IMG/VR virus record: IMGVR_UViG_3300036770_001422
Location: 1-61,044 of that record
Source: a virus
Strand: one strand, 5' to 3'
DNA length: 61,044 nucleotides
Shown: piece after piece, positions 40,701-61,044 of the stretch
How the letters are laid out: the number at the start of each line of letters is the position of its first letter
Numbering within the stretch: position 1 is the first letter of the stretch
Program-made: the position numbers and the translations under genes
The notes under the pieces: generated by a model
Database searches by the model: none
The model's input: the letters and a program-made list of their open reading frames with translations, nothing else
Told to the model about the DNA's origin: nothing

Positions 40701-40876
40701 CTCAAGAATTGCAGGTATTCAATGAGAAAATTAGAGATGCTAGACTTGCATACTATACAGCCAAACGTGATTTACCTCAGGGAGATCCTGGTATAATAGC
40801 CGCACGTGATAAGTGGTTTGCATTGACAGAAGATGCAGAATATATAGACCTTAGGAAGAAACTTGGGATTGCATAA
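37736..40876 (+). CDS. gp5: Baseplate central spike protein, gp5-like, lacking a lysozyme domain
   Basis: The protein has 1046 residues. The N-terminal OB-fold is recognisable (VFGVVKDNIDPTRSGRLQVY, WISVSYMTPFYGY, PDIGTQVICIFINGD, GFWIGCVPKPD). Residues about 300-365 form a spike-type beta-helix with short repeats (GTVDIYSTNSINLRTQGDL, NLHADNNVNIHATKDLNI). Between them T4 gp5 carries a lysozyme domain; I see no catalytic E-x8-D-x5-T pattern here. Residues about 460-960 are a very Ala/Ser/Gly-rich, low-complexity region of unknown role, and the last about 80 residues are a charged helical tail. Upstream GGGGG may serve as a ribosome-binding site. Likely role: trimeric membrane-piercing spike at the centre of the baseplate. 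Confidence 0.8.
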   Translation: MAQDVFKPKGPTKASQPDAGGANARTVPVFGVVKDNIDPTRSGRLQVYISDFGGDDPDNRDNWISVSYMTPFYGYTQPDANESGYGTYKDNPSSYGMWFAQPDIGTQVICIFINGDVNYGFWIGCVPKPDALTMVPAIGATDNIVPNEGEAQSYGGAVRLPVTNINTNNEEMADSNDYINAAKPVHSYVAGIMSQQGIIRDPVRGPISSSAQRETPSRVGWGVSTPGRPIYEGGFDDESLAQNLEGGTPQSLRVVARRGGHSIVMDDGDIIGRDQLIRIRTALGHQILMSDDGQTLMVLHSNGQSYIELGKEGTVDIYSTNSINLRTQGDLNLHADNNVNIHATKDLNIQGENININTEKDMNVRNGVNYKHYTLSDYTVKVDAAMSMESGGDSSFVSKNITYINGEKINLNTGATSTIPKEVDPIPIIAHTDTLFDDVKGFAACPGKLLSIVTRAPAHTPWANAGQGVDVKTDVSAKGNLPASPTPAQAAVNTASAAVAGTPVSVATTVSMPATTAVSGALDKNTTSAVLGTMAKNAATGPLQAAAAQGAAIVQQGTQKVAAIGAFAQSPTQMMTAGVLKPGSDKLVQSLVSSGANITQSMPASLFTGQKGAETLSNYINNTTAQATAQVVNLQKAQSALTAAGAISGKESAGQLAGIVMAGATSGVSSTLNALTSAASNPGAALASSTEALKSIGAGNLAASVAQNVTGGLGGISKALGAMSASPGLSGLLDSAKGVAGSAFSAITGSFKPMTAGIPQNLTALAKTAAQATASASGQTGVLSASSLVSSATGAVTGAVSSLTGAASALTSVGGAGALASAASAVASGGVASAASSLASGLSNLPGGQKTVQAVVNNAQGAINSLPGTAAITGLVQQASTAALNKLPLPSLPSGLNSLTNLATSGLAAGAAAQLTSAISALSSGGSVSIKLPTIGLNTVDRSGITAQIASVFGDPKIPKPNLVGEVSEGAKSAAEQQAEKIREEVKYAQELQVFNEKIRDARLAYYTAKRDLPQGDPGIIAARDKWFALTEDAEYIDLRKKLGIA

Positions 40877-40884: not shown

Positions 40885-41340
40885 ATGGCAAACTATATTG
40901 GATTTAGTACAATTAATGCGGACAAGCCTAAAATCACTAACCCAGTTAATTTAGGTAGAGATTATGGTGCTTCCGGCATTACAAGACCCTATGTATTTGG
41001 AAAAAAGTACCGTTTGACGGATTCTCAATTAGTAATACAAGATTTTGTTAATGCATTAAATATCCCTCAAGGACAAAAAGTCGGTCAACCTGCATATGGT
41101 ACAACACTTTGGTCGTTTGTATTTGAACCAAATACAGCAGATGTACAGTTTCAATTAGAAAATGAAATACGTAGAGTTGCTAGTCTAGATCCTAGAATAG
41201 AATTAAACTACGTAAAAGCGTTCCCGCAAGAAAATGGCATACTTTTAGAAGTAGAATTAGCAGTAAATCCATTCAATAGTGCTACTACTTTAAGTTTGTT
41301 TTTCGACAGCAAAACCAATCAAGCCTCGTTACAACAATAA
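40885..41340 (+). CDS. gp25: Baseplate wedge protein gp25
   Basis: The protein has 151 residues (T4 gp25 has 132). It fits the GpW/gp25 family: LVIQDFVNALNIPQGQKVGQ, PAYGTTLWSFVFEPN, QLENEIRRVASLDPRIELNY and the beta-rich end ILLEVELAVNPFN. gp25 is the wedge component at the junction with the sheath that starts sheath assembly, conserved in contractile tails and type VI secretion (TssE). The start has no Shine-Dalgarno sequence and instead CATAAATAA four bases before it. Confidence 0.95.
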   Translation: MANYIGFSTINADKPKITNPVNLGRDYGASGITRPYVFGKKYRLTDSQLVIQDFVNALNIPQGQKVGQPAYGTTLWSFVFEPNTADVQFQLENEIRRVASLDPRIELNYVKAFPQENGILLEVELAVNPFNSATTLSLFFDSKTNQASLQQ

Positions 41341-41386: not shown

Positions 41387-44300
41387 ATGGCTACAAGTTC
41401 AAGACAATCAGGATTGTTTGGCGTTAACGATTGGAAGGCCATCTACCAAACCTTTCGTGAAGCCGATTTTAGAAGTTATGATTATGAAACATTACGTAAA
41501 AGTTTCATAGATTATCTACGTCTTTACTATCCTGAGACCTTTAACGACTACATAGAGAGTTCAGAATTTATTGCTCTATTAGACGTTATGGCGTTTATGG
41601 GACAGGGTTTAGCCTTTAGAAACGACTTAAATGCACGTGAAAACTTTATTGATACTGCGGAACGCCGTGACAGCGTTATTAAACTTGCAGATTTAGTAAG
41701 TTATACTCCAAAACGCAATCTTGCTGGTCAGGGTTACTTAAAAGTTACCAGTATACAAACAACGCAGAACATCACTGACATTAATGGTATTAATTTAAGT
41801 AATATTCCTATTCTTTGGAATGATCCTGCTAATGCTAATTGGTTAGAACAGTTCAATACAATTATCAACGCTACTCTTATTAACACACAACGTGTAGGTA
41901 AACCAGGAAACGTTGCTGACTTATTGGGTATCACAACTAGTGAATATACTATGCAGATCCCTCAAGGAACACTCCCAATTGTTCCCTTTAACAGCACAGT
42001 TGACGGGCAAAATATGAACTTTGAATTGGTCAGTGTAACTAGCGTAGACGAAGATTATGTCTATGAAATTCCACCTGCACCAAGCCAGAGATTCAATATT
42101 TTATATCGTAATGATAAATTAGGTTATGGTAGCCCTGAAACAGGATGGTTCTTTTATTTCAAACAAGGATCACTACAGGCGGCAGACTTCAAATTAGAAC
42201 AGCAGATTGCCAACCAAACTGTAGACATTGACATTCAAGGTATCAACAATACTGATACATGGTTATATCAATTAAATGACAATAACGGTGATAGAGTAGT
42301 ATGGCGTAAAGTTGATAATGTTTATGCTGATGCATATTTGCAAACAGAAACATCATATAAAAAGATTTTTAGCGTAAATTCACGCTTTAACGATCAAGTT
42401 ACATATGTGTTTGGTGATGGAGTATTCAGTGAAATACCAGTTGGACAATTTAGAGCATATGTTCGTGCAGGTAATGCATTAACTTACACAATTGATCCTA
42501 GCGAAATGCAGGGTATCAGTGTAACATTTACTTACATTAATAGAAATGGTAAAACTGAAAACTTAACAGTTGGTTTAGAATTACCATTAGCCGTATCAAA
42601 CGCACAACAAAGAGAATCAGTACAAGAAATTAAACAACGTGCTCCAACACGTTACTATACACAGAATCGTATGGTTAATGGAGAAGATTACAACAACTTC
42701 CCATATACATTATACAGTTCAATTATTAAATCAAAAGCAATCAATCGTAGTAGTATTGGCGTAAGCAAAAACTTAGATTTATTAGATCCTACTGGAAAAT
42801 ATAGCAGTACTAACGTATTTGGTAGTGATGGTGCATTATATCAAAATAATGTAGATAGTTATCTAACATTGTTTATTACAAACGTTAATGACATTCGTGC
42901 ATTCTTGACATCTTCATTGGCAAATGCATTAGATAGCAACAAGGCTACACAATACTATATTCAAAATTATCCAAGATATAATGTGAACGCCGCATCTGGT
43001 GATGGTACAGTATATTGGCAAACAAGCACAGTAGATGCTAATAGCGAATCAGGATATTTCTACAATATAAGTGGATCACAAAATGTTCCTATACCTTTAG
43101 GTATCTATTCAAATAAGAATGCAAAGTATGTTACAACCGGTGCATTATGTAAATTTACTGCGCCAGTTGGATATTACTTTGATGTAAACAATAGATTGGT
43201 TCCCGGGATACCCGGTCCTACTAGTCAAACATACATTTGGACAACTGTATTAAATGTTGTTGGTGATGGATATAATAATGGTGACGGAGCGTTCCCTAAT
43301 GGAACAGGCCCTGTTACATTAAATGGTTATGTTCCATCAGGAGCAATATTATCACAAATTATACCTGTGTTTGATAATTCATTATCACAAACAGTTATTG
43401 ATGAATGTGTAGTTAGAATGGAGTTAGCACAAGACTTTACATTAGTCTTTAATAATTCACTTCCTATTAACCAAGAACGTTGGACAATTAATCCATATAC
43501 AGACACAAATTACTTTGTTAAATTTACAAGCACTGGCGCAAATAGATATACAGTAAGTTATCGCTCATTAACATACTATTTTGGTAGCGTTTCTGACACA
43601 AGATTCACACTAAGCCCTAATGAATTAGTTTATGATCCATTCTCAGGAAAAATATTACAAGATTTCGTTAGTGTTTTATCAACTAATAATCAACCAAATT
43701 CAAGTTATCCTTTTGGAAGAGATATTAAAGTTAATATTTTAGGACAAACAGTAGAAAGCGATGGTTATATTAACGACTTCCAAGTTGAAGTTGCTGCCAC
43801 TGATGTTAATAACGGAACATTGATATTAAATCCAGACTTTTTTAATGAGGTAACTGGATATGTAAACGGTGGCGCAAACATTGGCGTATATGTATTCTTT
43901 GAAATAATTGAAGATGCTATCAATTTAACAAGAGAACAGATTGTTCCATCAACTGATATCGTATACATCTATGCAAACAAGACACAAATTGAAGTTGTAA
44001 AGTATGATTATCCTGAGGGTCAATTGTTCTATGCATATAGTGATAATGTATTTTATAAATCATTACAAGATAATACTATAAACACTCCATACTATGTGTT
44101 GACCCCTCAGCCACAATATAGTGTAAAACCTGGTCGTCAGGGAGTAAGTTTTCAATATAGACATAATAGCAATAACACAACACGTATAGATCCAACAACT
44201 ACAAACATTATTGATTTGTATGTTGTAACACAGAGTTATTATACTGCATATCAAAATTGGATTCAAGATACAACTAACACAGTAGTTGAGCCAGATAAAC

Positions 44301-44758
44301 CTACAATTAATGAATTGAACCAAGAATACGGTCAAGTTAATGATTTCAAAATGTTGAGTGATTCAGTTATATTAAATAGTGTAGTGTTCAAGCCTTTGTT
44401 TGGTGCTAAAGCAAGTCCTGCATTAAGAGGAACTGTTAAAGTAATTAAGGCAAGTAACACGAATGCTAGTGATAGCGAAGTTAGAAGTGCTGTATTAACT
44501 GCGATGAACAAATATTTCAACATTAATAATTGGAACTTTGGGGACACATTCTTCTTCTCAGAATTAAGTGCGTATTTGCACACTGAGTGTGGAGAATTGA
44601 TTAGTTCAGCAGTATTAGTTCCAAATGATCCAACAAAACCATTTGGAGATTTATATGAAATTAAATGCATGCCTTACGAAATATTTGTGAATGCTGCAAC
44701 AGCAGAAGATGTATTGGTTGTCCCGGCATTAACACCGGCTGAATTACAAATAAGATAA
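41387..44758 (+). CDS. gp6: Baseplate wedge protein gp6
   Basis: The protein has 1123 residues. The N-terminus FRSYDYETLRKSFIDYLRLY, YPETFNDYIESSEFIALLDV, MAFMGQGLAFRNDLNARENF is the hallmark of gp6/J-family wedge proteins, and the C-terminal domain (VYGEVND-type VNDFKMLSDSVILNSVVFKP, VKVIKASNTNASDSEVRSAV, NNWNFGDTFFFSEL) is also conserved. gp6 dimers form the continuous inner ring of the baseplate. T4 gp6 has 660 residues; the extra length lies in a large central region (about residues 400-900). It is directly followed by the giant gene in the gp7 position, six bases downstream. Confidence 0.93.
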   Translation: MATSSRQSGLFGVNDWKAIYQTFREADFRSYDYETLRKSFIDYLRLYYPETFNDYIESSEFIALLDVMAFMGQGLAFRNDLNARENFIDTAERRDSVIKLADLVSYTPKRNLAGQGYLKVTSIQTTQNITDINGINLSNIPILWNDPANANWLEQFNTIINATLINTQRVGKPGNVADLLGITTSEYTMQIPQGTLPIVPFNSTVDGQNMNFELVSVTSVDEDYVYEIPPAPSQRFNILYRNDKLGYGSPETGWFFYFKQGSLQAADFKLEQQIANQTVDIDIQGINNTDTWLYQLNDNNGDRVVWRKVDNVYADAYLQTETSYKKIFSVNSRFNDQVTYVFGDGVFSEIPVGQFRAYVRAGNALTYTIDPSEMQGISVTFTYINRNGKTENLTVGLELPLAVSNAQQRESVQEIKQRAPTRYYTQNRMVNGEDYNNFPYTLYSSIIKSKAINRSSIGVSKNLDLLDPTGKYSSTNVFGSDGALYQNNVDSYLTLFITNVNDIRAFLTSSLANALDSNKATQYYIQNYPRYNVNAASGDGTVYWQTSTVDANSESGYFYNISGSQNVPIPLGIYSNKNAKYVTTGALCKFTAPVGYYFDVNNRLVPGIPGPTSQTYIWTTVLNVVGDGYNNGDGAFPNGTGPVTLNGYVPSGAILSQIIPVFDNSLSQTVIDECVVRMELAQDFTLVFNNSLPINQERWTINPYTDTNYFVKFTSTGANRYTVSYRSLTYYFGSVSDTRFTLSPNELVYDPFSGKILQDFVSVLSTNNQPNSSYPFGRDIKVNILGQTVESDGYINDFQVEVAATDVNNGTLILNPDFFNEVTGYVNGGANIGVYVFFEIIEDAINLTREQIVPSTDIVYIYANKTQIEVVKYDYPEGQLFYAYSDNVFYKSLQDNTINTPYYVLTPQPQYSVKPGRQGVSFQYRHNSNNTTRIDPTTTNIIDLYVVTQSYYTAYQNWIQDTTNTVVEPDKPTINELNQEYGQVNDFKMLSDSVILNSVVFKPLFGAKASPALRGTVKVIKASNTNASDSEVRSAVLTAMNKYFNINNWNFGDTFFFSELSAYLHTECGELISSAVLVPNDPTKPFGDLYEIKCMPYEIFVNAATAEDVLVVPALTPAELQIR

Positions 44759-44764
44759 AAAGAA

Positions 44765-47700
44765 ATGGCTACAACAAGAATTAGAACATTAAATTTCTTA
44801 CCAGAAATATTTCAGACTCCTACCAACACTCAGTTTTTAGGAGCAACATTAGATCAATTAGTAAATCCTCCAATCACAAAAAGGATTGAAGGTTATATTG
44901 GTAGTAAGTTGGGTTATGGCGTTAACGCTAAAGATTATTATGTAACCGAACCCACAAAGGTAAGAACGGATTATCAATTAGATCCGGGTGTAGTCTTTAC
45001 TAAAAAGAACGAATCAACTGCACAAGATTTTATAACATATCCAGGTATCATTGATTCATTAAGATTGGAAGGCGGTGTTACTAACAATAATGACCGCATG
45101 TTTGAAAGCCAATTCTATTCATGGGACAGTTTTACAGACCTTGACAAGATTATTAACTTTAATCAATACTATTGGTTACCAGACGGACCTCCCGCAGTTC
45201 AAGTAGCGGCAGCAACAGTATTTGCTACGAACGATTACATTATCACTGACTTAGCAAATGGCTACAATATTAGAACATTAGGCTCAGGCGCAGGATCAAT
45301 TAATCCTACTTTGATCTTATTAAGAGGTGGTACTTATAATTTTTATGTAAATCAAAGTTCACAGTTTTGGATTCAAACTGCACCCGGTACTAGTGGATAT
45401 GATCCAACACAACCTAACATATATACCAGAGATGTATTTGGTGTATCTAATAATGGAGCAGAGCAAGGCATTGTAACATTTACTGTGCCTGCAAAAGACG
45501 CACAGGATCAATATAATTACCCTGGTAATAATTTAGTAGACGTTGTTTCTACAACACCTTTCGATCAAATCAATGGACAATTACTATCAACAGTTGGTAG
45601 CATTGACGGAGTAACATCACTTAACGGGTTAACCGTTATGTTCTATGATACTGGTGTACCAAACGAAACAGGATACACATCACAATACTTTGGTGAAGGT
45701 GAGTACGATACAAACATTGATTTAGTTGCACCATTAACAATTTCAATTTCAGCAACAGACGTATTAGGTGCAATCACATGTAGTTCTACTGCAAACTTAG
45801 TATCAGGTCAAACAATTACATTTGATGGAACACCATTTGGCGGACTAGATTCATATGCTGTCTCTGGTACAATTTATTATGTTGACAGTATTTTAAGTTC
45901 GACTCAATTTACTGTTACCTCTTATCAAGCAGGATCATCAACTCCACAACCAGTTACATTATCAACTGCTTTTGGATTTATGACTGGTAATATTAATCAG
46001 GGTTTATTAGAAGAAGGATATACTTCAACAGTAAGCCAAAACTTTTATCAAATAACTTATGTTGGCGATCCTAGTGACCCTGTGTTAAGACTTACTCCTG
46101 TTAGCGTAATACCTACAGAGCAGAGAATAACACCTGTTTATGGTTCATCTTGGATTGGCAGAGGATTCTATAGAAATACATTAGGCGTTATCGCATTGAT
46201 TCCTGCTATCACAGCACCATTAGATACATTATATTATCAAGATGGTACTAGTCCTAACAAAGTTGGTATTATTAAAATTATTGAAAGTAATATTACTAAT
46301 ACCCTTAATGTAGAAACAGACATATTAGGTAAAAAGAATTTTACTTCTACCAATGGAATAACATTTACAAATGGATTAAAAGTTGAATTTGACGGTGACG
46401 TTATACCGTCAAGTTATCTACAAGGTCAATACTATGTAGAAGGTGTAGGTACTGCTATTGAATTAATACCTGTAACTACTTTAGTGTGTCCTGAAGATTT
46501 CACTGAAGGTGATTACATACCGTATGATACTGCACCTTATGATATAGGTAACTATGATAGTAACTTGTTTGTACCTGTATTGCAAGATTATATTACAATT
46601 TCAAGAGCAGGTATTAATAAAAATGCGTGGTCACGTAGCAATCGTTGGTTTCATATTGATGTAATTAATGCAACAGCAGAATACAACAATGATCCAAATA
46701 TTGTTAACTTATATGCAACTGCGGATGCTAAAGCAAAGCGCCCTATCATAGAATTTTATCCTAACTTAAAACTATTTGATGCAGGAACAGTTGGTAAAAA
46801 CGCTATTGACTTTATTGATTTTAAATCAACTGACGCACTATCACAGGTTGCAGGTCAAACTGGATTTTATCCTGACGTAGAAACTTATACTGCGTATACA
46901 GGAACATTAAATGGCGTAGTAAGTGGTACATCAACTACAGCAATTATTGATACCACTGATATTGTTGGAGCATTCCAAATTGGTCAATATGTAACAGACT
47001 TACGTTTTAGTACATCAACTATGACCTATCCAAGTGTATTACCTAGTGATGCACAGATTACCGATATCGTTGAAGCAAGTGGTACTACAACATTGACGAT
47101 TGGTTGGGTAGATTCAATCTCTTTTGCTACAATTAATAATGTTCAATTCGTTGCAGATGATCAACAAAATGACAATTACAAAGTGTTTGATGGTGCAAGA
47201 ATTGTATTTGCATCAGATACCAATATTAATGTAAAGAATAAAATTTATGTTGTTAATTTTTCATCAGTTACATCAAGTTTACTTCCAGTAATTACATTGA
47301 CTGAAGCACCTGATGGTGAAGTATTACCAAAAGATCAAACAGTAGTATTAAGAGGATTTAACTATCAAGGTGATACTTACTTCTATGATGGTATTGATTG
47401 GTTAAAAGGTCAGCAAAAAACTGATGTTAATCAACCACCGTTGTTTGATGTTGTTGACAGCAACAATATAAGTTTTGGTGATACAGAAGTATATCGTGGT
47501 ACTACATTCATAGGCTCTAAATTGTTTGCCTATGGTATTGGATCAGGACTAGATGATACTATATTAGGATTCCCAATACGTTATAGTGCTATTGATAACG
47601 TTGGTGATATCAGTTTTGACGTATCATTGAATATTGATAAGTTTGATTATGTTAGCGGTACTGATCCTATAACACAAGACGTTAACACAGGTTATGTTTT

Positions 47701-50700
47701 AAATTATATTAGCAGAGATGTTTATGAACGTGAATTAGGTTGGCAAACAGCAGTAGGACCAAGCGTACAATATCAAGTCTTTAATTTTGACTATTTTATT
47801 GCTAATCCACCTGCAAATTATGTATGTGATATTGCCAAACTTGATACTGATCAAAGCGAATGGCCTACAATACAGGTGTATATCAATAATGTTTTACAAA
47901 CGTCAGATGCATACACTGTAAGTGTTGGTACAGATACTACAACTGTAACACTTAACGATATTATCAATGAAGATACAGTAATTCAAATATTGTTATTGAG
48001 TAATCAAGTTAGCGAAAAGTCTTACTATACAATACCAATTAATTTAAATAATAATCCGTTAAACGAAGATTTAACTACTGCAAATATTGGTGATATCCGC
48101 GCACATTATCAGACCATATATGCTAACAATCCTAACTTCCAAGGACCAATGTTTGGTTCTAACAACTATAGAGACTTAGGAAACTTAGTACCATACGGCA
48201 CTAAGATCATTCAAAACAGTGCGGCATTGGTATTACCGGGCGCATTCTTACGTAAACAAAATCATAATATATTTGATGCATTATTGTTTAATAGTCGTGA
48301 GTATATCAAGTTTAAGACATTGTTAGTAGATACAATTAATAGTACTGATTATCCACAAAGATTTACTCCATCTTATATTTTAGATGATGCATTGGATCAA
48401 CTTTCTGCTGCCAAGAGCGAAAGTCAAGCATTCTTTTGGTCAGACATGTTACCAAGCAAGGCACCTTATCTGACTAACACATATACATTTAATAACGATT
48501 TAGATACCAGCGTGTATCCATTGAGTAGAATTTATGACTTTTCAACTGCCAACTATTATGGTTTATTAGTATATCTATCAAGAGTTATCGAAGGTACTGT
48601 AGTTGAAAGACAATTAATAACTGGTCAAGAATATACAGTAAGCACAGATAGTAAATCATTAACAGTTACTATCCCATTACAACCTCAAGATCAGATTATC
48701 ATTAAAGAATACAATCAAACATATGGTTCATATATTCCAAACACTCCTACTAAGTTAGGATTATATCCAGCATTTATTCCAAGCGTTGTGCTAGATAGTG
48801 ACTACACACAACCTACATATTTCATTAAAGGACATGACGGTTCATATACTAAACTATATGGAGACTATGATCCTACTTTAGGTATTCTTATTGATTACAG
48901 AGATCAAGCGTTATTAGAATTTGAAACTAGAGTTTATAATAACTTGAAATTAAGTAATCCTATACCAATTCAAGCGTATGAAGTTACACCTGGATTCTTT
49001 AGAGAAAGTGATTATAGTTACGATGAATACTTAGAAATTTATGAAAAGAATTTCTTAAATTGGATTGGTCAAAATAGATTGAATTATAAGAAACAATTCT
49101 ATGATAAGAATAATCCATTTACATTTAACTATAGAAATTCAGGTAACAAACTTGATAGACAACCAATTGGACAAGGGTACTGGAGAGGTATCTATGAATA
49201 CTACTTTGGTACAAGCACACCAAATGAAACTCCATGGGAGTTATTAGGTTTTGTAAATCAACCTGCTTGGTGGACAGATCGTTATGGTCCTGCTCCATAT
49301 ACTAGCGACAACTTAATATTGTGGGGAGACTTAGAAGCAGGTATCAACTGGAACAACGGTGATCCATATGTGATACCTCAAGAAGTAAGACCCAATCTAT
49401 TAAAAGTTCTCCCAGTAGATAGCGCAGGTAATTTGTTATCACCGTTAGATGCTATCGTTGGAAATTACAATGACCAAACATTCCAAAATCAATGGGATAT
49501 AGGTGATGATGCACCTGTTGAGTTAAGTTATCGTAGAAGTTCAACATGGCCATTCGATTTAATGCGAATAATGGCATTGACTAAACCTGCTAAATTCTTT
49601 AATTTGGGTGTAGACTTAGACAATTACAAATATAGCACAGAATTTAACCAATACCTTGTTAATGATAGAAGCCATTTAATTATAAGTAACATAGATATCT
49701 ATGGTACTGGCACACCTAAGACTTCATATATCAACTGGATAGTTGATTATGAAAAACAATTAGGTATTGATGCAACACAAAACATTAAAGATTTGTTATT
49801 CAATATTGATGTAAGATTGATATACAGATTAGCAGGCTTCAGTGACAAGACATTGTTAAAATTCTATGTTGAGAAAGGAACGCCTAACAGCAGAAACTCA
49901 TCATTGTTGATACCTGACGAAAGTTATCAAGTATTATTATATGATAATCAACCATTTGATAAAGGTGTCTATAGTTCTGTAATTATACAGATAGATAATG
50001 GTGCATTTAACGTTTATGGTAATTCACAGTCAATGGCTTATTTTAGAACATTGACACCATTAAACAATGGTAATTACGACAATATTAAAGTTGATGCGGC
50101 CAGCGTAAAAATTACAAGAGACTATAGTACAGAAGAAATATTAGTTCCATATGGAACATCATTCTATAACATACAAGACCTATCAACATTTTTGGCTAGT
50201 TATGGTGCATGGTTAAATCAAAAAGGATTTATATTTGACCAAGTAGAATATGGATTAGAAATCAATTGGGGTCAAATGATTGCTGAATTCCTATACTGGG
50301 CGCAGACTGGTTGGGGAGAAGGTAGTGTACTAACACTAAATCCAAGTGCTAATTTATTAAAGATTGATCAACCTAATAGTATTGTTCAACCATTAACTAT
50401 ACAACAAACTAACTTTGTATTGAATCAAAACTTATATCCAATACAAGCAGTAGATATGTCTGTCTTTAGAGATGGTACATTATTCACAGTTAAACCATTA
50501 AGTCAGGGTGATGCAATTGCATACGGTCAATTTAACCTAAGCAACTTTGAACATGGTATTGTTTTCGATAACGTAACATTGTTCAATGATATAATTTATA
50601 ATCTTGTAACCGGACTAAGACAAACACGTATTACTGTAAGAGGTACTAAAACAGCAGAGTGGAACGGCACAGTTACGGCTTCAGGTTTTATATTGAATCA

Positions 50701-53700
50701 GGACAACGTACAAGAATGGTCGAGAGAAATCAAATATACTAAAGGCTCAATCGTACTTTACAAAAACAAATATTGGACAGCGTTAAAGATTATTCAGCCA
50801 AGTAATGTTTTCAATGAAACCGACTGGAAAGAAACTGAATACAATGAAATTCAAAAAGGTTTATTACCAAACAGTAGTACAAGAAGTTATGAAAGTGCAT
50901 TGTACTATGATGTAAATAAGGCAAACCTTGAACAAGATGCTGATCTATTAAGTTTTAGTTTGATTGGATATCGTCCAAGAGATTATCTAGCGTTAGCAGA
51001 CCTTACAGATATTACACAGATTAATGTTTATAAAAACTTAATCAAAAACAAAGGTACACGTAATGCAGTTGAAGCGTTCCGCGGCGCAAACTTGCCACAG
51101 GGCGGTATCGACTACGAAGTTTATGAAAATTGGGCAATCAAGTCAGGACAGTTTGGTAGCATAACAAATAATAACTTTATTGAATTTAAAGTTAACCAAG
51201 AGTATATGACTGCTAACCCATCGTTAGTTAGTTTAATTAATGGTCCCTCAGTAGCATCAGTACAGCAAGAAGTTCCAGTATACAATTTGTTTAACTACAG
51301 TGTTCCTGTACAAAATCCAAATATCTTAGCAACAATTCCTAAGAATGCACCTGCAAAATTATATCCAGATGCAGGATATGTGAACTTCAACGATGTGAAA
51401 ATGAGTTCATATTTCTACTCAGGATTATCTAGTGCAGTTAATAAGAATGGTCAAGTCGTACCTATACAAGATTTCTATGTAAGAAATTATGTTTGGTTAG
51501 CAGACTATCTAGCAAAATGGCAAGTGTTCACTCCTGTACAAAATGGTAGAGTAGTAGGAGCAAGAACTAATCCTAATGGTACGACAACAATTACATTTGC
51601 AGAACCTCATAACTTAACTAAGTTAGATCCTTTTGCAATCATTAATTTCAATTCTAATGTTGATGGTTATTACTTTGTTGTTGAAGTTGTAAACTTATTT
51701 GAAGTTTTAATTAATTTAACTTTCTTAACTAATGAAGGTCAACTTAACGGCGAAGGTATAGCAGTTAGATTCCAATCACAAAGAGTTGATAGTCCTTCTG
51801 ACATTGCTAATCTACCACTGTTGGATAGCGAATTTATTAAAAACACTGTTTGGGTCGATGAGAATAGTGATGGTAACTGGGCAGTTTATCGCAAGTCTAT
51901 CAACTATCAATATGATAGAGAAGTTACCAAAGCCGGTTCAAGCACATATGGTAGCGCAGTTGCATATACCCCTAGAATAGGGTATCTGTTCAGTGACGCT
52001 GGTTTAGGTGAAGTTTATCGTTACGTACTTAATGGTTTAACTCAAGAGTATGATGTCATACAAACACTATCGGGTAATACAAGTTTTGGTTCACAAGTAT
52101 TGATTGTTGACAATACAATTTTTGTATCAGAACCAACTAGTGGCACTCCTAAAGTTTATGTTTATTATGTAAACGATAGCATATTGTCTGACGATATTAT
52201 TACATATCAATCTCCTATCAGTGCTCCAATTGGAGTAACAAATTGGGGAAGTGCATTATCAGCGTCAGCCGATGGTAATTGGTTATATGTATCAGATGTT
52301 GATAACAACAAAGTATATGTTTACAGACGCCAAAGTTTTGAAGTAGATGCAGGTTATTTAACTGTAGGCAAAACTTATGCAATCACTGAAGTAGGTGATA
52401 CTGATTTTGCCGCAATAAGCACAACTCCTACAACAACACTAAATCAAATTGGTGAAGTGTTTGTCGCAAGTGGCACAGGCACAGCAGGTGAAACAGGTCG
52501 TGCAAGACAAATTAACTATGAATTAGTTAACATCATTGACGGATCAACATTAGGTTTAACCGCCGGCGATAACTTTGGTCATTCTATATCTACTGATTAT
52601 AACGGTGATACTTTAGTAATTGGTGCTCCTTATATTGACTATAGTGGTTCAATATTGAATTGGGGTAAAGCATACGTATATCAAAGAACCGCGCAAACGT
52701 TTGAAGCACAATTAAACACAACTGGATTACAAACATTTGGCCTAGCATGGACCGCTTCAACATTAAACTCAGCAACCACACAAATATATGCATCAAATCA
52801 GATTGGTGTAAACGTAGACTTTACTGGTTATGAAAATAAGCCAATAGTATTCAGTGGTTCTAATTTTGGTAGCACAGGTTTACAGGCAAATAAGACTTAC
52901 TATATTGATACAGTTGTAAGTGCAACTAGAATAACAGTTAAAGAATCACGTTCAAGTTCTACCGCAGTTACATTAACACCAGAAGCAAGTTTAACTATTA
53001 ATGGATATCTACAGTTAGAACCATTATATGTAACAGTTAACGGAACCTTAATTAGCGATGACAATTACAGTGTAATTGGTTCTATATTCAACTATACAGC
53101 ACCATTAAAAGCAGGTGACATTATTAATATAAGTGGCGACCAGTTTACATTAATGCAAACACTAACCACTAATAATACTCCTAGAGTTGGTGTTCAATAT
53201 GGTTATAGTGTGGCAGTTAATAATAAAGGTACAGATGTATTAGTTGGTGCGCCATTTGACCTGTCTGACGTAAATGAAGAAGGCGGTGTTTACAGATACA
53301 CTAATGGTGGAAGTAAATATGGTATCGTAATAGGTACTGAAGATGTCAATGTTACTACAAATAGAGTTTTATTAATTAATGGTTATAGCGTAACTATTCC
53401 ACCTGGCAATGCTACTGTTGCAGCCAATGCAATTATACAAGAAAAAATTACTAACATAACTGCTGCGGCACAGAATGACAAACTTATCATTCAAGTTATA
53501 AACAGCGACTTAGCACAGCCCAATGAAAAATTATTAATTTCGGCAGTAGATACTAACACACTCACTGAGTTAGGAATTCAAGTTTATACAGAGACTCAAG
53601 TTATCAGATGCCCACATTCAGAAGGTCCAACACAGTTTGGCAACAACATTAAATTTAATGAGTTAAACTCTGTTGTGATTAGTGCTCCAGTTGGCACAAG

Positions 53701-56700
53701 ATTTGCAGGTACACGTTTTGATTTCAGCGATGACGAAACATTAGAAAACGATACGATATTTGACAATAATGCAACACAGTTTGTAGACACAAGTCCAAAC
53801 TGCGGTGCAGTTTATATGTTTGACTATTTGGCAAACTATAATGAAAGTTTAAGTGATCCTGGTCAATATGTATATGCTCAAAGCACTAATAACTTAAATA
53901 TTAACTATGGATATAGTCCGTTATATGGTCAAGCATTAGCATTCTCTAACAACAGAGTATTAGTTGGTTCACCTAACTTCTTACCAGGAGCATATAATGG
54001 TCAAGTTGTTGTATATATTAATGCTACCGGCGAAGCAGATTGGTCAGTTTATAGAGAGTCTAGCCCAATAGTAGACATTAATAAAGTTAAGAACATACAA
54101 TTGTTTAGTGCAGAAACTAACAATACATTAATTAATCTTGATTATATTGATCCGTTACAGGGCAAAATTTTAGGTGCATGTAGAGAAAACATTAATGTAG
54201 TTTCAAACAATGACCCTGCAAGATATAACAGTACTGAAGCAGATCAACCTGGAATGACATGGGGATCAAAACAAGTTGGACAATTATGGTTTGATACTAC
54301 GAACGTTCGCTTTGTAAACTATCATCAAAATGATGATGCTAATTATAATGCAAAATATTGGGGAACAGTATTCCCAGGCAGTGACGTTGCAGTTTACAGT
54401 TGGGTATCAAGTAATGTTCCACCAAACTTGTATATAGGTCCAGGCACTCCATATGATATTACGTTGTTTTCAACACAAGATATTTTAAGTGCATCTGATG
54501 TAGTTACTCCTGTTTACTTCTTTTGGGTAAGAAATACTAATGTAATCTTTAGAAAAGAAGGTAAAACATTATCAGATAGCATTATCGAAACATACATTGC
54601 TAACCCAAAGAATTCAGGTATTAGTTTCTTTGCACCATTATTACAAAATGTATACGCAATATATAATTGCGGTCAATACTATAATGCAAACGATTCAGTA
54701 TTGCATATTGGATATTCAAATGGTAGAGGAGATGATTTAGGTCATAATGAATTTACTCTTATTAGAGCAAACTATGCTGACGACTTCTTACCAGGATTAC
54801 CAAACGAATTATTAACACATGGTTTTGATGCAAACATTCATGGCAATACACCTGCAGGTAATAACAGACCTGAATCATTATATGATAGAATGCTAGACAG
54901 TTTAGCAGGTGTAGATGAAACAGGAGAAGTTGTTCCTAATCCTTGGTTACCAAAGGCTGTGCAATCAGGTGTATTAGCAAGACCAAGACAAAGTTTCTTC
55001 TTTGATAGATTTGAAGCATTAAAGAATTATCTAACATATGCTAATGAAGTATTAGCACAGTTCCCAATCTCTGAGACAAGAAGAAACGCAAGTTTCTTAT
55101 TTGCAGAAGGTGAATTCTTTAATACTACCGACTATTGGGAATATGTAAACTGGTGGGCAACTGGATATGACAATAACACTAAATCAGCGTTACAAGTTCC
55201 TATCTATGCAGACTTAGCAACATTAAATGTACCAGTTAATACAATTGTAACAGTTAATACAAACGGTGATGGTAAATTTGAAGTTTATCGTTATGATGGT
55301 GAAGGTGTTTGGACTAGAATAGGTCTACAACAAGGTACAATTCAGTTTAAATTATACCTATGGGATTACGCTGCCGGCAAGACTGGTTTCGGAGATAACT
55401 TCTTTGATACAAGTGCATACGATGAATTCCCAAGTGAAGAAACACGTTACATTATTCGTGCATTGAACGAACAGATTTATACGGATGAGTTATTGATATT
55501 CAGAAACAAGTCATTAATACTATTGTTTGAATACATTCAAAGTGAAACTGACGAATCACAAAATTATTTACCATGGTTAAACAAAACTTCATTGGTTGAT
55601 GTGGCACACAAGATTCGTGAACTACGCCCTATCGAAGTATTCCAAAGTGATAATCAAGATTTCTTAGCAGGCTATATTAATGAAGTAAAACCTTATCACG
55701 TTGTTGTTAAAGAATTTGTATTCAAATATACAGGTGAAGAAATATTTGAAGGTAATATCACTGACTTTGATTTACCTGCAACATATAACACATCATTAGA
55801 AAAATATATTACTCCTGAATTGGTACAAACTAATGTATCATCAGATAGCCAATATTTACCAACCAATCCAATTTGGCAAACACAACCATATAATCAATGG
55901 TTCCAAAATAGAGGTGTAACAATTGGTGGACAAACTGAGTTTGAAATCACAATATTAACTTCATATCTAACGTTAGGTACAAGATTTTTAATTGTAGATA
56001 ATGCACAAGGTTTCCCAATCAATGGCGTATTACAAATTGGTGAAGAGTTAATAAGTTATTCATATGTTGACAGAGCAACTAATACAATCAGTGGATTGGT
56101 TAGAGGTTACAACAATACACCTATAACAGATCATATTCCTGGTGAGAAAATCTTTATTGACTTACCACCAGTAATTGTATTAAATGGCGGTAGAGGTTAT
56201 ATTGACCCACCAAGAGTAATTGCTTATGTTGATGAAGCATTATACGGGGCACCATTAAGACCGGCTGTGCTTGAAGCAGTAATGACATTGGACTCAGTAT
56301 TACAGATTAATGTTATTGATCCGGGTCAAGGATATCCTGTATTACCTGAGATTAGAATTGATCCAGCACTACAGATTATTTTTACAAGTGCAGACGTTAA
56401 CACATTAACTAATACAATTAGATTGTATGCGCCTAACTTACGTACAGGGGATTTAATTCAGTACAGAAAAGGTGAAATAGGTGGTGCTGTTGGTGGATTA
56501 GTTGATAGACAGTGGTACTATGTAAATCTATTAGAAAGTGATCCAACTGCGGTTATAGCGTTGTATTCAAGTTACGGCGATGCATTAAATGATAGAGATA
56601 GAATTCAAATTTATACTGATGGCACTGGTAGTGATCATACATTGAATTTGGGTGCTAAAGCAAGTGCCATAACAAGTGCAAGCCCTGTACGTGAAAACAA

Positions 56701-59700
56701 TATCAAATTACGTTTTGATAGAACAACATATACTTCACAAGTACAAGATTGGGAAGCAGGTCAATATTATGGTGCTTTCTTTGCAGGAAGTTATTCTAAT
56801 AGCGAGAAAGTTGCAAGTAGTAATGTTCTATTATATTCAACTCAACCGCCTATTGGAGATATCCTAGCATCAGCTCAAGGTGTAGCATTTGAAATTGCTA
56901 GTGTTGTAAATGATAGAAATCTTACTTGGTCAAGTTTTGTTCGTACAGTTGATAGCACTGTAGCAACAGGAAGTTTAATTAGATTAACACCGTACGATGA
57001 TGGAGCAGGTGATCCAAACAGTTCAGGATCAACCATAGGTTTCTATGTAGGAATGCCTATTAAGTTTAGTGGTCAAATTCCTAGCCCATTAACAATAGAT
57101 ACAATTTATTATGTACATAGCGTAGTTAATATTACTGATTTCACCGTATCTGCAACTGAAGGTGGACCTCAGTTAACAGGATTCAGTAATGTTTCAATTG
57201 CCACTATACCTGGCGCATTTGCATATGCAGGTCAAGTTGTAGATACCGCAGTATTGACTGTAAATTATCCGGGTATCTTAACTGCTACTGCAACACAAGC
57301 AGGATCAAATACTATTACAGTACCATTAACCGATATAGGTACTGGTGGTACTATTGGTTTCTATGTTGGATTACCGTTGTTCTTTACTGGAACAGTATAC
57401 GGTGGTGTAACACAAAATCAAGTATACTACGTTACAACTATTGTTGACAATGAAACATTTACAATGTCAGAATCATCTGACCCATTGATGTTAAGCGTTA
57501 CTGCTACAACTACTGGAACAGATATTATTACCATTGAATCAAATGATGATTTAACTATAAATGAACCTGTTATCTTTAATGAAATGCAAGTTGCAGGCGC
57601 AGACGTTACATCATTTGGTGGATTGGTATCTGGAACAACATACTATGTTGCAGAAATAGTAAGTGCTACACAGATCAAAGTATCTGCTACAATTAATGGC
57701 ACTATATTCTCATTGTCTACAGTATCCTCAGCGTCAGATACAGGATGTACATTAACTAGTCAAATAAACACACTACCATTAATTACTGCAACTGGAGCAA
57801 TGACAGTCAATGTTTCATTACCAGTAAGCCCAGGTCAAGTAAATGGTCAACAGTTTATATTGTACGAAACATCAGGTCAGTATGCAAACATTAGCGTACC
57901 TGGTAGCGATATTAGTAACTTAATTGAAAGAACATTAACAGCAACGTTAGATAATGATAAAGTTGGTATTAAACTTTCAACCGGCGGCGTAGATAATTTC
58001 TACTACAACATGCCTATACAAGTTGAAACTCCACCTGCAGGTTCAAATTTAACTGCAGGAACAACATATTATGTTGTAGAGTATACTGGTATGGAAGATC
58101 CATTGAATCCAGGAGAGTACTTTACTAAATTAGAAACAGAAGTTTATAGTACAGATGGTTCTTATAATATATTGAACTGTGATAGCACTGATAATTTATA
58201 TATTGGTATGCCAATTATATTCACTGGTCAATCCTTAGGTGGAATTGTTATTAGTGATGAATACTATGTAAGATATTTTGTAACTGACGCGGGTAGTTTT
58301 GTAGTAGGCAAATCATATACAATTGAAGTACCGGGTACAACAGACTTTACATTAATTGGCGCGGCAGATAACAATCCAGGAACAACATTTACTGCTACTG
58401 GAGTAGGTACTGGAACTGGTACAGCATACGGTGAGTATCCAAGCGTAGGTGGAACTAAATTTAAGATATCTGCTATTAAGGGTGGATCTGTTAAAACACT
58501 TACAACTGCTAATGGATTAATGACAGGCACCGGCGATCCATATGTTAAATTATCATTGTCATCAAGCGGTTCTCCTGAAGATTTAGATTATACTAATACA
58601 GAATTTAACTTAGTTCAATTCCCAAGTTCAAGTGAAGCGATACCTGTTTTACCCGTGTTCGATGTAAGTTATATTTTGGGTGGGTATAGAGTATTAATTA
58701 CTAATGGTGGATATGGTTTTGCAATTGACAATCAATTAGTAATACCGGGTAATGAATTGGGTGGAGTAACACCGGGCAATGATTTAACTATGATTGTTAA
58801 TACTATCGATGCTACTGGTGCTATTACTGACGTTATCTGTTCAGGTACAGTACCCGGATTGAGTGAGAGATATTACTTAAAAGTTATATCTCCAAACCAA
58901 TTCGAAGTATACTCTGATCCATTGATGCAAGTTCCAGTGAGTGGTATTGATTTCCCATTTGTTGGTTTCACAACAACTACAGCAACAGATGTTACAGCAT
59001 CTAATGATAGAGTTACTGTAACAAGTTCAACAGATTTTGATATTAATGATGCAGTAGTGTTTACAGGAACAATGTTCTCGTCTGAGATTACATTGGGTCA
59101 AACATATTACATATATGACAAGCCAACATCAACAACTGTTCGCTTAACAACCAATCCAGGTGGTTCAATAATTAATTTTGCAAGCAATGCTAGTGGTTCT
59201 ATGCTAATGACCAAAGCAGGAAGTTTTGCATTGTTACCAGAACCATTCTATTTCAATCAAAGCGTTGTCAAGTTCAATAACAGAGTTTATATCTGCGTAG
59301 TAAGTAACAATGACGACGAATTTATATTTGGTAAGTGGGAATTACTAGATCCTGCTGACCGTAGATTGAATGCGTTAGATAGAACAATTGGTTACTATCA
59401 ACCAACAGACAATATGCCTGGTGTTGATCTAACTCAACTATACACTGGTATTACATATCCAAATTCAACATATTTAGGTAATCCGTTTGCGCCAGCAGAA
59501 CAATACACATTAGACACCGTATTACAAGGTCAAGAATTCTATCCAACTGAAGTTGATGTAACTTCTGTTATATGGAATGGTACAAACTATCTAGCAGCCG
59601 CTAATATACCTACATACTCAGCAGTATTAGGAAGTTCTACTGGAGACAGTTGGGCAATTGCTAAGTTAACAAATGTTGGAATAGGTGCAACCGATATAAT

Positions 59701-61044
59701 TTATGCAGGTGGTTATTATGTTATCACTTCTACAAATAGTGCAACACCTATCTATAGAAGTAATGATGGTATAACATGGACTACTAATGGATACTTTACT
59801 CCATATGGTTCTGTACCATACGATAGTATTCCATATGATATGACTTCAATCAATATTGCGGCATTGTCATTATATTCAGTAGCATATAAAAATGGTTACT
59901 ACATGGCAGTCGGTGACAATATTGTGCGCAGTGACGATACATATATTTGGAGAGAAAGTTTTAACTTCAATACTGTTCTCAATAACACATTATATGGTAT
60001 AAGCCCAATAACATTATTGTCTGGTCCTGTTACAATATTTGATGGTTTTATTGCAGTTGGTAAAGGTCAACGTTATGATTACTCAACCGGTCTAACTGAA
60101 ATTGTTGATACTAATATTATCGTACAAACTACTGATGGTATATCATGGACTCAACTCCCTTCAGCAACTACTAAGGGAATGTATGGTGTTACTAGCAACA
60201 GTTCGATAGCATTAATTGTAGGTGAAGATGGTATAATCTATTATTCACAGAACGGTACTGATTGGATAGGAGTTACTGAAACTCAAGTTACAGGTATCAA
60301 TGGTGCTACAGATGTATTAGGTATTAACGCAATTAGCGGCTTAACAGTAAATGATCCTATCAGATTTACAGAGTCATTTGACGTATTAACTAGTGGTACA
60401 ACATATTATGTTCACACAGTAATATCTTCTACTCAAATTCAAGTAACTGATACTATAGGTAATCCTCCTATAGACTTATCAGGTGCAGGTTCTATTCCAG
60501 CACAAACAATCATGTACAAGTATCCAAGAACAGATACGTTACGTGATGTTCTTTGGGCTAACTCACAATTTATGGCAGTTGGTGATAATGGTAGAATTAC
60601 AACTAGCCCTGACGGTGTAACATGGACTGAAAGAGTATCAGGTACAATTCAAAATCTAAATGGATTAAATTATGTATCTGGCACAACATGGATTGTAGTT
60701 GGTGATAACAATACTATATTGAAGAGTACTGATGACGGGATTACATGGGAAAGTTCATCATTGTTCGTAGTTGCACCGACAGTATATGATGTTGTGGGCG
60801 ATCCTTTCCAATCAGGTTATGGTCCAGAAGAATTGGTTCCTGGAGTAATTACTGACGAATTAACTATGACAGTAGTAACTCGTCCAGGTACAAATTGGCC
60901 TGTGACAACATATGGGCATAGTGGTTATAACGTAGTATCATACGAATTTACACCAACATCATCAACTCAAACAGTTTATGATTGGACAGGTGATGTATTA
61001 GTTCCAGCACAATTAGCATGTTTTGTAATTAATGGTGTTACTGG
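44765..61044 (+). CDS. Giant baseplate/virion protein in the gp7 position, 3' end beyond window
   Basis: The frame is open from the ATG at 44765 to the last base (5426 codons), so the protein exceeds 5400 residues; T4 gp7 has 1032. The N-terminus TTRIRTLNFLPEIFQTPTNT with FTDLDKIINFNQYYWLPDGP resembles large baseplate/virion proteins of marine T4-like phages. Internal modules: FG-GAP-like beta-propeller repeats at about residues 2400-3085 (FGHSIS...LVIGAPY...KAYVYQR and variants), a long unique region (about 3090-3700), many ITF.G....G...YYV units (about 4090-4800), two GK(T/S)Y.I...G.TDF modules (about 2535 and 4515), and Asp-box/BNR-like repeats SNDGITWT, TTDGISWT, SPDGVTWT, STDDGITW (about 4995-5325). 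Likely role: peripheral wedge or host-contact scaffold. The start has only a weak A-rich leader. Confidence 0.85.
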   Translation, partial: MATTRIRTLNFLPEIFQTPTNTQFLGATLDQLVNPPITKRIEGYIGSKLGYGVNAKDYYVTEPTKVRTDYQLDPGVVFTKKNESTAQDFITYPGIIDSLRLEGGVTNNNDRMFESQFYSWDSFTDLDKIINFNQYYWLPDGPPAVQVAAATVFATNDYIITDLANGYNIRTLGSGAGSINPTLILLRGGTYNFYVNQSSQFWIQTAPGTSGYDPTQPNIYTRDVFGVSNNGAEQGIVTFTVPAKDAQDQYNYPGNNLVDVVSTTPFDQINGQLLSTVGSIDGVTSLNGLTVMFYDTGVPNETGYTSQYFGEGEYDTNIDLVAPLTISISATDVLGAITCSSTANLVSGQTITFDGTPFGGLDSYAVSGTIYYVDSILSSTQFTVTSYQAGSSTPQPVTLSTAFGFMTGNINQGLLEEGYTSTVSQNFYQITYVGDPSDPVLRLTPVSVIPTEQRITPVYGSSWIGRGFYRNTLGVIALIPAITAPLDTLYYQDGTSPNKVGIIKIIESNITNTLNVETDILGKKNFTSTNGITFTNGLKVEFDGDVIPSSYLQGQYYVEGVGTAIELIPVTTLVCPEDFTEGDYIPYDTAPYDIGNYDSNLFVPVLQDYITISRAGINKNAWSRSNRWFHIDVINATAEYNNDPNIVNLYATADAKAKRPIIEFYPNLKLFDAGTVGKNAIDFIDFKSTDALSQVAGQTGFYPDVETYTAYTGTLNGVVSGTSTTAIIDTTDIVGAFQIGQYVTDLRFSTSTMTYPSVLPSDAQITDIVEASGTTTLTIGWVDSISFATINNVQFVADDQQNDNYKVFDGARIVFASDTNINVKNKIYVVNFSSVTSSLLPVITLTEAPDGEVLPKDQTVVLRGFNYQGDTYFYDGIDWLKGQQKTDVNQPPLFDVVDSNNISFGDTEVYRGTTFIGSKLFAYGIGSGLDDTILGFPIRYSAIDNVGDISFDVSLNIDKFDYVSGTDPITQDVNTGYVLNYISRDVYERELGWQTAVGPSVQYQVFNFDYFIANPPANYVCDIAKLDTDQSEWPTIQVYINNVLQTSDAYTVSVGTDTTTVTLNDIINEDTVIQILLLSNQVSEKSYYTIPINLNNNPLNEDLTTANIGDIRAHYQTIYANNPNFQGPMFGSNNYRDLGNLVPYGTKIIQNSAALVLPGAFLRKQNHNIFDALLFNSREYIKFKTLLVDTINSTDYPQRFTPSYILDDALDQLSAAKSESQAFFWSDMLPSKAPYLTNTYTFNNDLDTSVYPLSRIYDFSTANYYGLLVYLSRVIEGTVVERQLITGQEYTVSTDSKSLTVTIPLQPQDQIIIKEYNQTYGSYIPNTPTKLGLYPAFIPSVVLDSDYTQPTYFIKGHDGSYTKLYGDYDPTLGILIDYRDQALLEFETRVYNNLKLSNPIPIQAYEVTPGFFRESDYSYDEYLEIYEKNFLNWIGQNRLNYKKQFYDKNNPFTFNYRNSGNKLDRQPIGQGYWRGIYEYYFGTSTPNETPWELLGFVNQPAWWTDRYGPAPYTSDNLILWGDLEAGINWNNGDPYVIPQEVRPNLLKVLPVDSAGNLLSPLDAIVGNYNDQTFQNQWDIGDDAPVELSYRRSSTWPFDLMRIMALTKPAKFFNLGVDLDNYKYSTEFNQYLVNDRSHLIISNIDIYGTGTPKTSYINWIVDYEKQLGIDATQNIKDLLFNIDVRLIYRLAGFSDKTLLKFYVEKGTPNSRNSSLLIPDESYQVLLYDNQPFDKGVYSSVIIQIDNGAFNVYGNSQSMAYFRTLTPLNNGNYDNIKVDAASVKITRDYSTEEILVPYGTSFYNIQDLSTFLASYGAWLNQKGFIFDQVEYGLEINWGQMIAEFLYWAQTGWGEGSVLTLNPSANLLKIDQPNSIVQPLTIQQTNFVLNQNLYPIQAVDMSVFRDGTLFTVKPLSQGDAIAYGQFNLSNFEHGIVFDNVTLFNDIIYNLVTGLRQTRITVRGTKTAEWNGTVTASGFILNQDNVQEWSREIKYTKGSIVLYKNKYWTALKIIQPSNVFNETDWKETEYNEIQKGLLPNSSTRSYESALYYDVNKANLEQDADLLSFSLIGYRPRDYLALADLTDITQINVYKNLIKNKGTRNAVEAFRGANLPQGGIDYEVYENWAIKSGQFGSITNNNFIEFKVNQEYMTANPSLVSLINGPSVASVQQEVPVYNLFNYSVPVQNPNILATIPKNAPAKLYPDAGYVNFNDVKMSSYFYSGLSSAVNKNGQVVPIQDFYVRNYVWLADYLAKWQVFTPVQNGRVVGARTNPNGTTTITFAEPHNLTKLDPFAIINFNSNVDGYYFVVEVVNLFEVLINLTFLTNEGQLNGEGIAVRFQSQRVDSPSDIANLPLLDSEFIKNTVWVDENSDGNWAVYRKSINYQYDREVTKAGSSTYGSAVAYTPRIGYLFSDAGLGEVYRYVLNGLTQEYDVIQTLSGNTSFGSQVLIVDNTIFVSEPTSGTPKVYVYYVNDSILSDDIITYQSPISAPIGVTNWGSALSASADGNWLYVSDVDNNKVYVYRRQSFEVDAGYLTVGKTYAITEVGDTDFAAISTTPTTTLNQIGEVFVASGTGTAGETGRARQINYELVNIIDGSTLGLTAGDNFGHSISTDYNGDTLVIGAPYIDYSGSILNWGKAYVYQRTAQTFEAQLNTTGLQTFGLAWTASTLNSATTQIYASNQIGVNVDFTGYENKPIVFSGSNFGSTGLQANKTYYIDTVVSATRITVKESRSSSTAVTLTPEASLTINGYLQLEPLYVTVNGTLISDDNYSVIGSIFNYTAPLKAGDIINISGDQFTLMQTLTTNNTPRVGVQYGYSVAVNNKGTDVLVGAPFDLSDVNEEGGVYRYTNGGSKYGIVIGTEDVNVTTNRVLLINGYSVTIPPGNATVAANAIIQEKITNITAAAQNDKLIIQVINSDLAQPNEKLLISAVDTNTLTELGIQVYTETQVIRCPHSEGPTQFGNNIKFNELNSVVISAPVGTRFAGTRFDFSDDETLENDTIFDNNATQFVDTSPNCGAVYMFDYLANYNESLSDPGQYVYAQSTNNLNINYGYSPLYGQALAFSNNRVLVGSPNFLPGAYNGQVVVYINATGEADWSVYRESSPIVDINKVKNIQLFSAETNNTLINLDYIDPLQGKILGACRENINVVSNNDPARYNSTEADQPGMTWGSKQVGQLWFDTTNVRFVNYHQNDDANYNAKYWGTVFPGSDVAVYSWVSSNVPPNLYIGPGTPYDITLFSTQDILSASDVVTPVYFFWVRNTNVIFRKEGKTLSDSIIETYIANPKNSGISFFAPLLQNVYAIYNCGQYYNANDSVLHIGYSNGRGDDLGHNEFTLIRANYADDFLPGLPNELLTHGFDANIHGNTPAGNNRPESLYDRMLDSLAGVDETGEVVPNPWLPKAVQSGVLARPRQSFFFDRFEALKNYLTYANEVLAQFPISETRRNASFLFAEGEFFNTTDYWEYVNWWATGYDNNTKSALQVPIYADLATLNVPVNTIVTVNTNGDGKFEVYRYDGEGVWTRIGLQQGTIQFKLYLWDYAAGKTGFGDNFFDTSAYDEFPSEETRYIIRALNEQIYTDELLIFRNKSLILLFEYIQSETDESQNYLPWLNKTSLVDVAHKIRELRPIEVFQSDNQDFLAGYINEVKPYHVVVKEFVFKYTGEEIFEGNITDFDLPATYNTSLEKYITPELVQTNVSSDSQYLPTNPIWQTQPYNQWFQNRGVTIGGQTEFEITILTSYLTLGTRFLIVDNAQGFPINGVLQIGEELISYSYVDRATNTISGLVRGYNNTPITDHIPGEKIFIDLPPVIVLNGGRGYIDPPRVIAYVDEALYGAPLRPAVLEAVMTLDSVLQINVIDPGQGYPVLPEIRIDPALQIIFTSADVNTLTNTIRLYAPNLRTGDLIQYRKGEIGGAVGGLVDRQWYYVNLLESDPTAVIALYSSYGDALNDRDRIQIYTDGTGSDHTLNLGAKASAITSASPVRENNIKLRFDRTTYTSQVQDWEAGQYYGAFFAGSYSNSEKVASSNVLLYSTQPPIGDILASAQGVAFEIASVVNDRNLTWSSFVRTVDSTVATGSLIRLTPYDDGAGDPNSSGSTIGFYVGMPIKFSGQIPSPLTIDTIYYVHSVVNITDFTVSATEGGPQLTGFSNVSIATIPGAFAYAGQVVDTAVLTVNYPGILTATATQAGSNTITVPLTDIGTGGTIGFYVGLPLFFTGTVYGGVTQNQVYYVTTIVDNETFTMSESSDPLMLSVTATTTGTDIITIESNDDLTINEPVIFNEMQVAGADVTSFGGLVSGTTYYVAEIVSATQIKVSATINGTIFSLSTVSSASDTGCTLTSQINTLPLITATGAMTVNVSLPVSPGQVNGQQFILYETSGQYANISVPGSDISNLIERTLTATLDNDKVGIKLSTGGVDNFYYNMPIQVETPPAGSNLTAGTTYYVVEYTGMEDPLNPGEYFTKLETEVYSTDGSYNILNCDSTDNLYIGMPIIFTGQSLGGIVISDEYYVRYFVTDAGSFVVGKSYTIEVPGTTDFTLIGAADNNPGTTFTATGVGTGTGTAYGEYPSVGGTKFKISAIKGGSVKTLTTANGLMTGTGDPYVKLSLSSSGSPEDLDYTNTEFNLVQFPSSSEAIPVLPVFDVSYILGGYRVLITNGGYGFAIDNQLVIPGNELGGVTPGNDLTMIVNTIDATGAITDVICSGTVPGLSERYYLKVISPNQFEVYSDPLMQVPVSGIDFPFVGFTTTTATDVTASNDRVTVTSSTDFDINDAVVFTGTMFSSEITLGQTYYIYDKPTSTTVRLTTNPGGSIINFASNASGSMLMTKAGSFALLPEPFYFNQSVVKFNNRVYICVVSNNDDEFIFGKWELLDPADRRLNALDRTIGYYQPTDNMPGVDLTQLYTGITYPNSTYLGNPFAPAEQYTLDTVLQGQEFYPTEVDVTSVIWNGTNYLAAANIPTYSAVLGSSTGDSWAIAKLTNVGIGATDIIYAGGYYVITSTNSATPIYRSNDGITWTTNGYFTPYGSVPYDSIPYDMTSINIAALSLYSVAYKNGYYMAVGDNIVRSDDTYIWRESFNFNTVLNNTLYGISPITLLSGPVTIFDGFIAVGKGQRYDYSTGLTEIVDTNIIVQTTDGISWTQLPSATTKGMYGVTSNSSIALIVGEDGIIYYSQNGTDWIGVTETQVTGINGATDVLGINAISGLTVNDPIRFTESFDVLTSGTTYYVHTVISSTQIQVTDTIGNPPIDLSGAGSIPAQTIMYKYPRTDTLRDVLWANSQFMAVGDNGRITTSPDGVTWTERVSGTIQNLNGLNYVSGTTWIVVGDNNTILKSTDDGITWESSSLFVVAPTVYDVVGDPFQSGYGPEELVPGVITDELTMTVVTRPGTNWPVTTYGHSGYNVVSYEFTPTSSTQTVYDWTGDVLVPAQLACFVINGVT

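Follow-up and report, generated by a model that had tools for sequence, protein, structure and literature searches.

An unusually long member of a jumbo-phage virion protein family directly follows the gp6-like baseplate wedge gene in a metagenomic phage contig

What kind of protein is encoded by a reading frame that begins directly behind a baseplate wedge gene and stays open until the contig ends? The question is raised by IMG/VR record IMGVR_UViG_3300036770_001422, of which positions 1 to 61,044 (hereafter the window, 61,044 bases) were analysed. The frame occupies 44765..61042 on the plus strand, starts with ATG and runs for 5,426 codons without a stop. It begins 6 nt past the end of the gp6-like wedge gene (41387..44758, plus strand, 1,123 aa) and just 3' of an A/G-rich stretch, AAAAAGAAATG; a gp25-like wedge gene (40885..41340, 151 aa) and a gp5-like baseplate hub gene (37736..40876, 1,046 aa) precede these on the same strand. 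For random base order at the same composition, the chance of such an open frame is log10 P ~ -161, and the other five frames contain 307-680 stops over the same region. A preliminary description of this DNA had reported a single 16.3-kb frame reaching the window edge, taking up more than a quarter of the window and exceeding T4 gp7 fivefold in length, and all of this was borne out. The share of the window is 26.7%, a figure that simply reflects the fragmentary, 61-kb extent of the record (contigs of relatives span 250-333 kb), and the length is 5.3 times that of T4 gp7 (1,032 aa), or ~6.4 times when the gene is completed as in its relatives.

Since the frame leaves the record, we sought its stop in related contigs, of which IMG/VR holds at least 575 related stretches. 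The extension succeeded: three contigs (G001, G002 and G003), with proteins 89-91% identical to that of the window, carry the full gene of 6,596 aa, and the window accordingly ends inside the gene, at residue 5426 of an estimated ~6,600. The preliminary description had named a fusion of two genes by error, or a split of the region in close relatives, as findings that would count against it. The region forms one unbroken frame in 19 of 20 related contigs (5,940-6,718 aa over these 19), and the exception, metagenome contig G022 (L122), has a lone frameshift at about codon 2,900 that sits inside conserved sequence, with both flanks aligning to other members. Synonymous change far exceeded non-synonymous change, with dN/dS of 0.03-0.08 in each full 600-codon tile (maximum 0.084) and slightly higher values in residues 2401-3000 and 4201-4800. 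The unbroken frames and the purifying selection along the whole length show that the giant gene is real and intact, and not a fusion artefact.

Family profile and block HMM searches placed the giant protein in a known family, phrog_10938 ('virion structural protein'; PHROGs category 'head and packaging'), by sequence match over several blocks, with three overlapping slices matching at E ~1e-134 to 3e-134, 2e-123 and 3e-52. Isolate relatives range from 3,326 to 4,555 aa and include RaK2 ORF070 (3,326 aa), CBB_236 (3,340 aa), SCTP-2 gp140 (3,807 aa), PA5oct gp355 (3,857 aa), Atu_ph07 gp180 (4,449 aa) and a Phosso protein (4,555 aa), together with members in Vibrio 2.275.O, Sharanji and BF. The major capsid protein of the window shares ~62-68% identity with its counterparts in these jumbo phages, and the window derives from a clade of T4-related jumbo myophages. 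As in the window, the giant gene lies directly 3' of a gp6-like gene in RaK2, PA5oct, Atu_ph07, Phosso, Vibrio 2.275.O, Sharanji, BF and CBB, so that the place is shared wherever it could be checked; the preceding gene matches the window gp6-like gene in all isolate relatives except SCTP-2. In this Salicola phage the gp6 slot before the giant gene holds gp141 (L125:2609-11899; 3,096 aa), for which BLAST detected no similarity to the window gp6-like protein (E 0.53). Homologous blocks are found at residues 1-200, 500-760, 800-2232 and 3050-3715. In contrast to this shared layout, identity is ~23-30% over the main blocks and 26-40% in the short N-terminal ones, and proteins of the window clade are longer by 1,400-3,400 aa, mainly owing to an array of internal YYV and BNR-like modules that were not found in the isolates. 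The giant protein is therefore an unusually long member of phrog_10938, and its novelty is its length.

The architecture, read on the plus strand, alternates conserved and clade-specific parts. A conserved N-terminal block (44765..45364, residues 1-200; LPEIFQT...F..ATLDQL...YYWLP) is common to all isolate relatives; residues 1-137 folded alone gave a model of very low confidence. It is followed by a block common to isolate relatives (46262..47044, residues 500-760) and by the main conserved block (47162..51460, residues 800-2232), which gives the strongest family match. The latter includes a CBM5/12-like (chitin-binding type 3) segment (50714..50782, residues 1984-2006), below the Pfam cutoff here as well as in PA5oct and Atu_ph07, and a family-wide helix-KGT-type motif (50942..51064, residues 2060-2100; QxxxYKxxIKNKGT). 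An FG-GAP beta-propeller region (51947..54004, residues 2395-3080; E 3e-10) is common to Atu_ph07, Phosso and partly SCTP-2, and as a whole was not detected in PA5oct and RaK2. The second conserved block (53915..55909, residues 3051-3715) is again common to all isolate relatives.

After residue 3715 comes a long stretch particular to the window clade. Its expansion region (57008..60487, residues 4082-5241) holds most of the YYV modules, each of ~70 aa, which number 10 in the window frame and 15 in complete close relatives; none were found in isolate relatives, and searches of phage records returned no match. A BNR/DUF6242-like propeller segment (59372..60799, approximately residues 4870-5345) matched below cutoff. 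Complete relatives end in a C-terminal cap with an RG-GT module, which for the window protein lies beyond the window edge; the cap aligns weakly with the ends of the Atu_ph07, Phosso and PA5oct proteins, so the ~2,600 residues added in the clade, small beta modules flanked by two conserved parts, appear to be internal. The preliminary description had viewed the interior as a chain of putative binding modules. This view is supported in part, by the FG-GAP propeller, the ~70-aa repeats and the sub-cutoff CBM5/12-like and BNR-like segments. AlphaFold models of residues 1-1180 and 3085-3790 had a mean pLDDT of 61, and Foldseek comparison of these low-confidence models with the PDB gave no fold match at E<1e-3; a search of BFVD returned Atu_ph07 together with proteins of uncultured phages, some of them carrying YHYH or chitin-binding names.

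Some of these modules and neighbouring gene types were also seen in other settings. The protein encoded at window positions 9323-13162 has one YYV module copy (E 4.7e-7) and head-decoration-like matches, and its gene carries 66-bp and 198-bp tandem repeats. Limnohabitans phage DC31, a much smaller freshwater phage, encodes a stand-alone 596-aa protein (L128:8443-10233) that matches the BNR-like segment of the giant protein (residues ~4890-5321) at E 2e-6. Elsewhere in the window, a 1,420-aa protein (21942-26204) combines tape-measure-like and endolysin/chitinase-like matches in one chain. Radical SAM genes are present near the structural genes (28348-29361) and, in a close relative, downstream of the giant gene (L085:11227-13886).

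Two isolate relatives tie the family to the virion. Mass spectrometry of CBB virions yielded 21 unique peptides of CBB_236 (PMC5259590), whose homology to the window protein is seen by sequence comparison, and PA5oct gp355 is marked as ESI-MS/MS-detected in its record. These detections indicate that phrog_10938 is a virion-borne family and, by analogy, that the giant protein of the window is probably a virion protein as well.

Gene 7 of T4 is flanked by genes 6 and 8, and the giant gene likewise follows a gene 6 counterpart. We detected no sequence similarity between the two products, in contrast to this shared place: none of the hhalign comparisons of nine blocks with seven gp7 proteins reached 1% probability, single modules and the KGT segment gave nothing significant against T4 gp7, and PDB sequence and profile searches with the giant protein found nothing. 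The hhalign set-up likewise performed weakly for gp6 with one T4 sequence as the target, so that a missing match here is not proof of unrelatedness. By eye, the KGT motif resembles the FYSTKG segment of T4 gp7, a likeness that is not significant. For the N-terminus, which the preliminary description called baseplate-like, a likeness to gp7 is thus unsupported. Its assignment to the gp7 position is borne out in that a very long, intact protein is encoded right behind the gp6-like gene and has isolate relatives in virions. It has been reported that gp7 is absent from cyano- and pelagimyophages, where it is apparently replaced by VrlC (PMC7029224). VrlC is thus, like the giant protein, a proposed gp7 stand-in; BLAST with S-SRM01 VrlC and ACG-2014e gp085 as queries returned no relative, either from the listed window ORFs or from the sequences analysed for the relatives.

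Unrelated proteins of similar size are known from this slot in cultured cyanophages. S-RIM8 encodes a 6,395-aa protein labelled 'gp7' in GenBank and ACG-2014b one of 6,422 aa, both right after gp6, and in ACG-2014e (3,495 aa) and S-SRM01 (3,895 aa) the order is gp25, gp6, the giant gene, and then gp8 or a baseplate wedge gene. These Kyanoviridae giants (phrog_701 and phrog_4406) share with the window protein the slot after gp25-gp6 and the size class, but they are not homologous to it beyond short modules, the best of which matched at E 5e-5 over 133 aa, and homology along the whole protein was not found. T4 gp7 weakly matches PHROG profiles that are also matched by a cyanophage giant, and no such shared link was found for the window's family. 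Giant proteins as such are therefore no novelty here, but they are found in more than one family. It is possible, if rather doubtful, that in the gp7 slot of T4-like phages two unrelated families independently reached ~6,000-6,700 aa, in the present case via a beta-module chain inserted in a conserved wedge scaffold and forming a baseplate apron that would contact the host surface and help gate contraction.

Taken together, we consider it most likely (probability of roughly 0.6) that the frame is the front 82% of one ~6,600-aa (~720 kDa) structural virion protein, a baseplate component that replaces gp7 beside the gp6-like wedge subunit and combines scaffold blocks with outer modules. The place after a gp6-like gene in eight isolates, the T4 order of gene 7 after gene 6 and the cyanophage order all support a baseplate location, which we infer from gene order. 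Against it stand the absence of detectable gp7 similarity, the poor AlphaFold models, the PHROGs category and the fact that gp8 was identified neither in the window nor in its relatives, one close relative having been examined 3' of the giant gene. Residues 1-2250 and 3050-3720 and the C-terminal cap seen in relatives would form a load-bearing scaffold attached to gp6 and adjoining proteins, presumably with six-fold copy number. The propellers, and with them the small beta modules strung between the conserved blocks, may face outward as the voluminous outer portion of the baseplate, making it larger and offering a hold for fibres or for the cell surface.

The preliminary description had instead favoured a baseplate-anchored sensing apparatus. 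In such a sensing or receptor-binding role, the propellers and modules would attach to glycans on the host surface and pass a signal to the wedge that sets off contraction. The FG-GAP propeller, the CBM5/12-like and BNR-like segments, the position of variable modules between conserved scaffold blocks, the slightly raised dN/dS in the two tiles named above and the stand-alone counterpart of the BNR-like segment in Limnohabitans phage DC31 are consistent with such a role. Several of these domain matches fall under curated cutoffs, however, and the evolutionary pattern points the other way: across the clade the giant protein is single-copy and collinear, aligning end to end at ~60% identity, and its modules are conserved with dN/dS never above 0.084. 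Among the eight relatives compared, identity is 93-96% for the capsid protein in contigs that include it and 71-77% for gp6, whereas the fibre proteins are in many shuffled pieces or were not found in the contig. This contrast fits a scaffold better than a variable receptor sensor and favours the structural baseplate reading, so that the sensing proposal is weakened and now seems improbable.

Somewhat less probable still is a virion protein located elsewhere, in tail whiskers, a collar or head-associated fibres, that merely adjoins gp6 in the genome. The 'head and packaging' category and the hair-like tail appendages on CBB (PMC5259590) would agree with this placement, but linkage directly after gp6 extends to distant jumbo phages and is paralleled by the gp25-gp6-giant-gp8 order of cyanophages. 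We regard as quite unlikely that the frame is translated whole and then cleaved into several mature virion proteins; extreme length and conserved blocks set apart by variable ones could be so explained, and the published CBB_236 peptides give no decision either way. An assembly or sequencing error joining separate genes, for which one could cite the metagenomic contig edge and the G022 frameshift, is refuted for practical purposes by the dN/dS values, by the unbroken frame recurring in 19 related metagenome contigs and by isolate relatives that are one annotated CDS without stop codons.

No relative of the giant protein was found in a host search of 84,980 genomes, and the literature on giant phage proteins held no direct report of phrog_10938 function. 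Sources disagree on which protein does the work of gp7 beyond the classical T4 group: VrlC in one paper (PMC7029224), a 6,395-aa 'gp7' in a GenBank record. With at least 575 related IMG/VR stretches, very large proteins of the baseplate region are evidently common among environmental phages, and a conserved, virion-linked giant in the gp7 slot is a clear target for cryo-EM.
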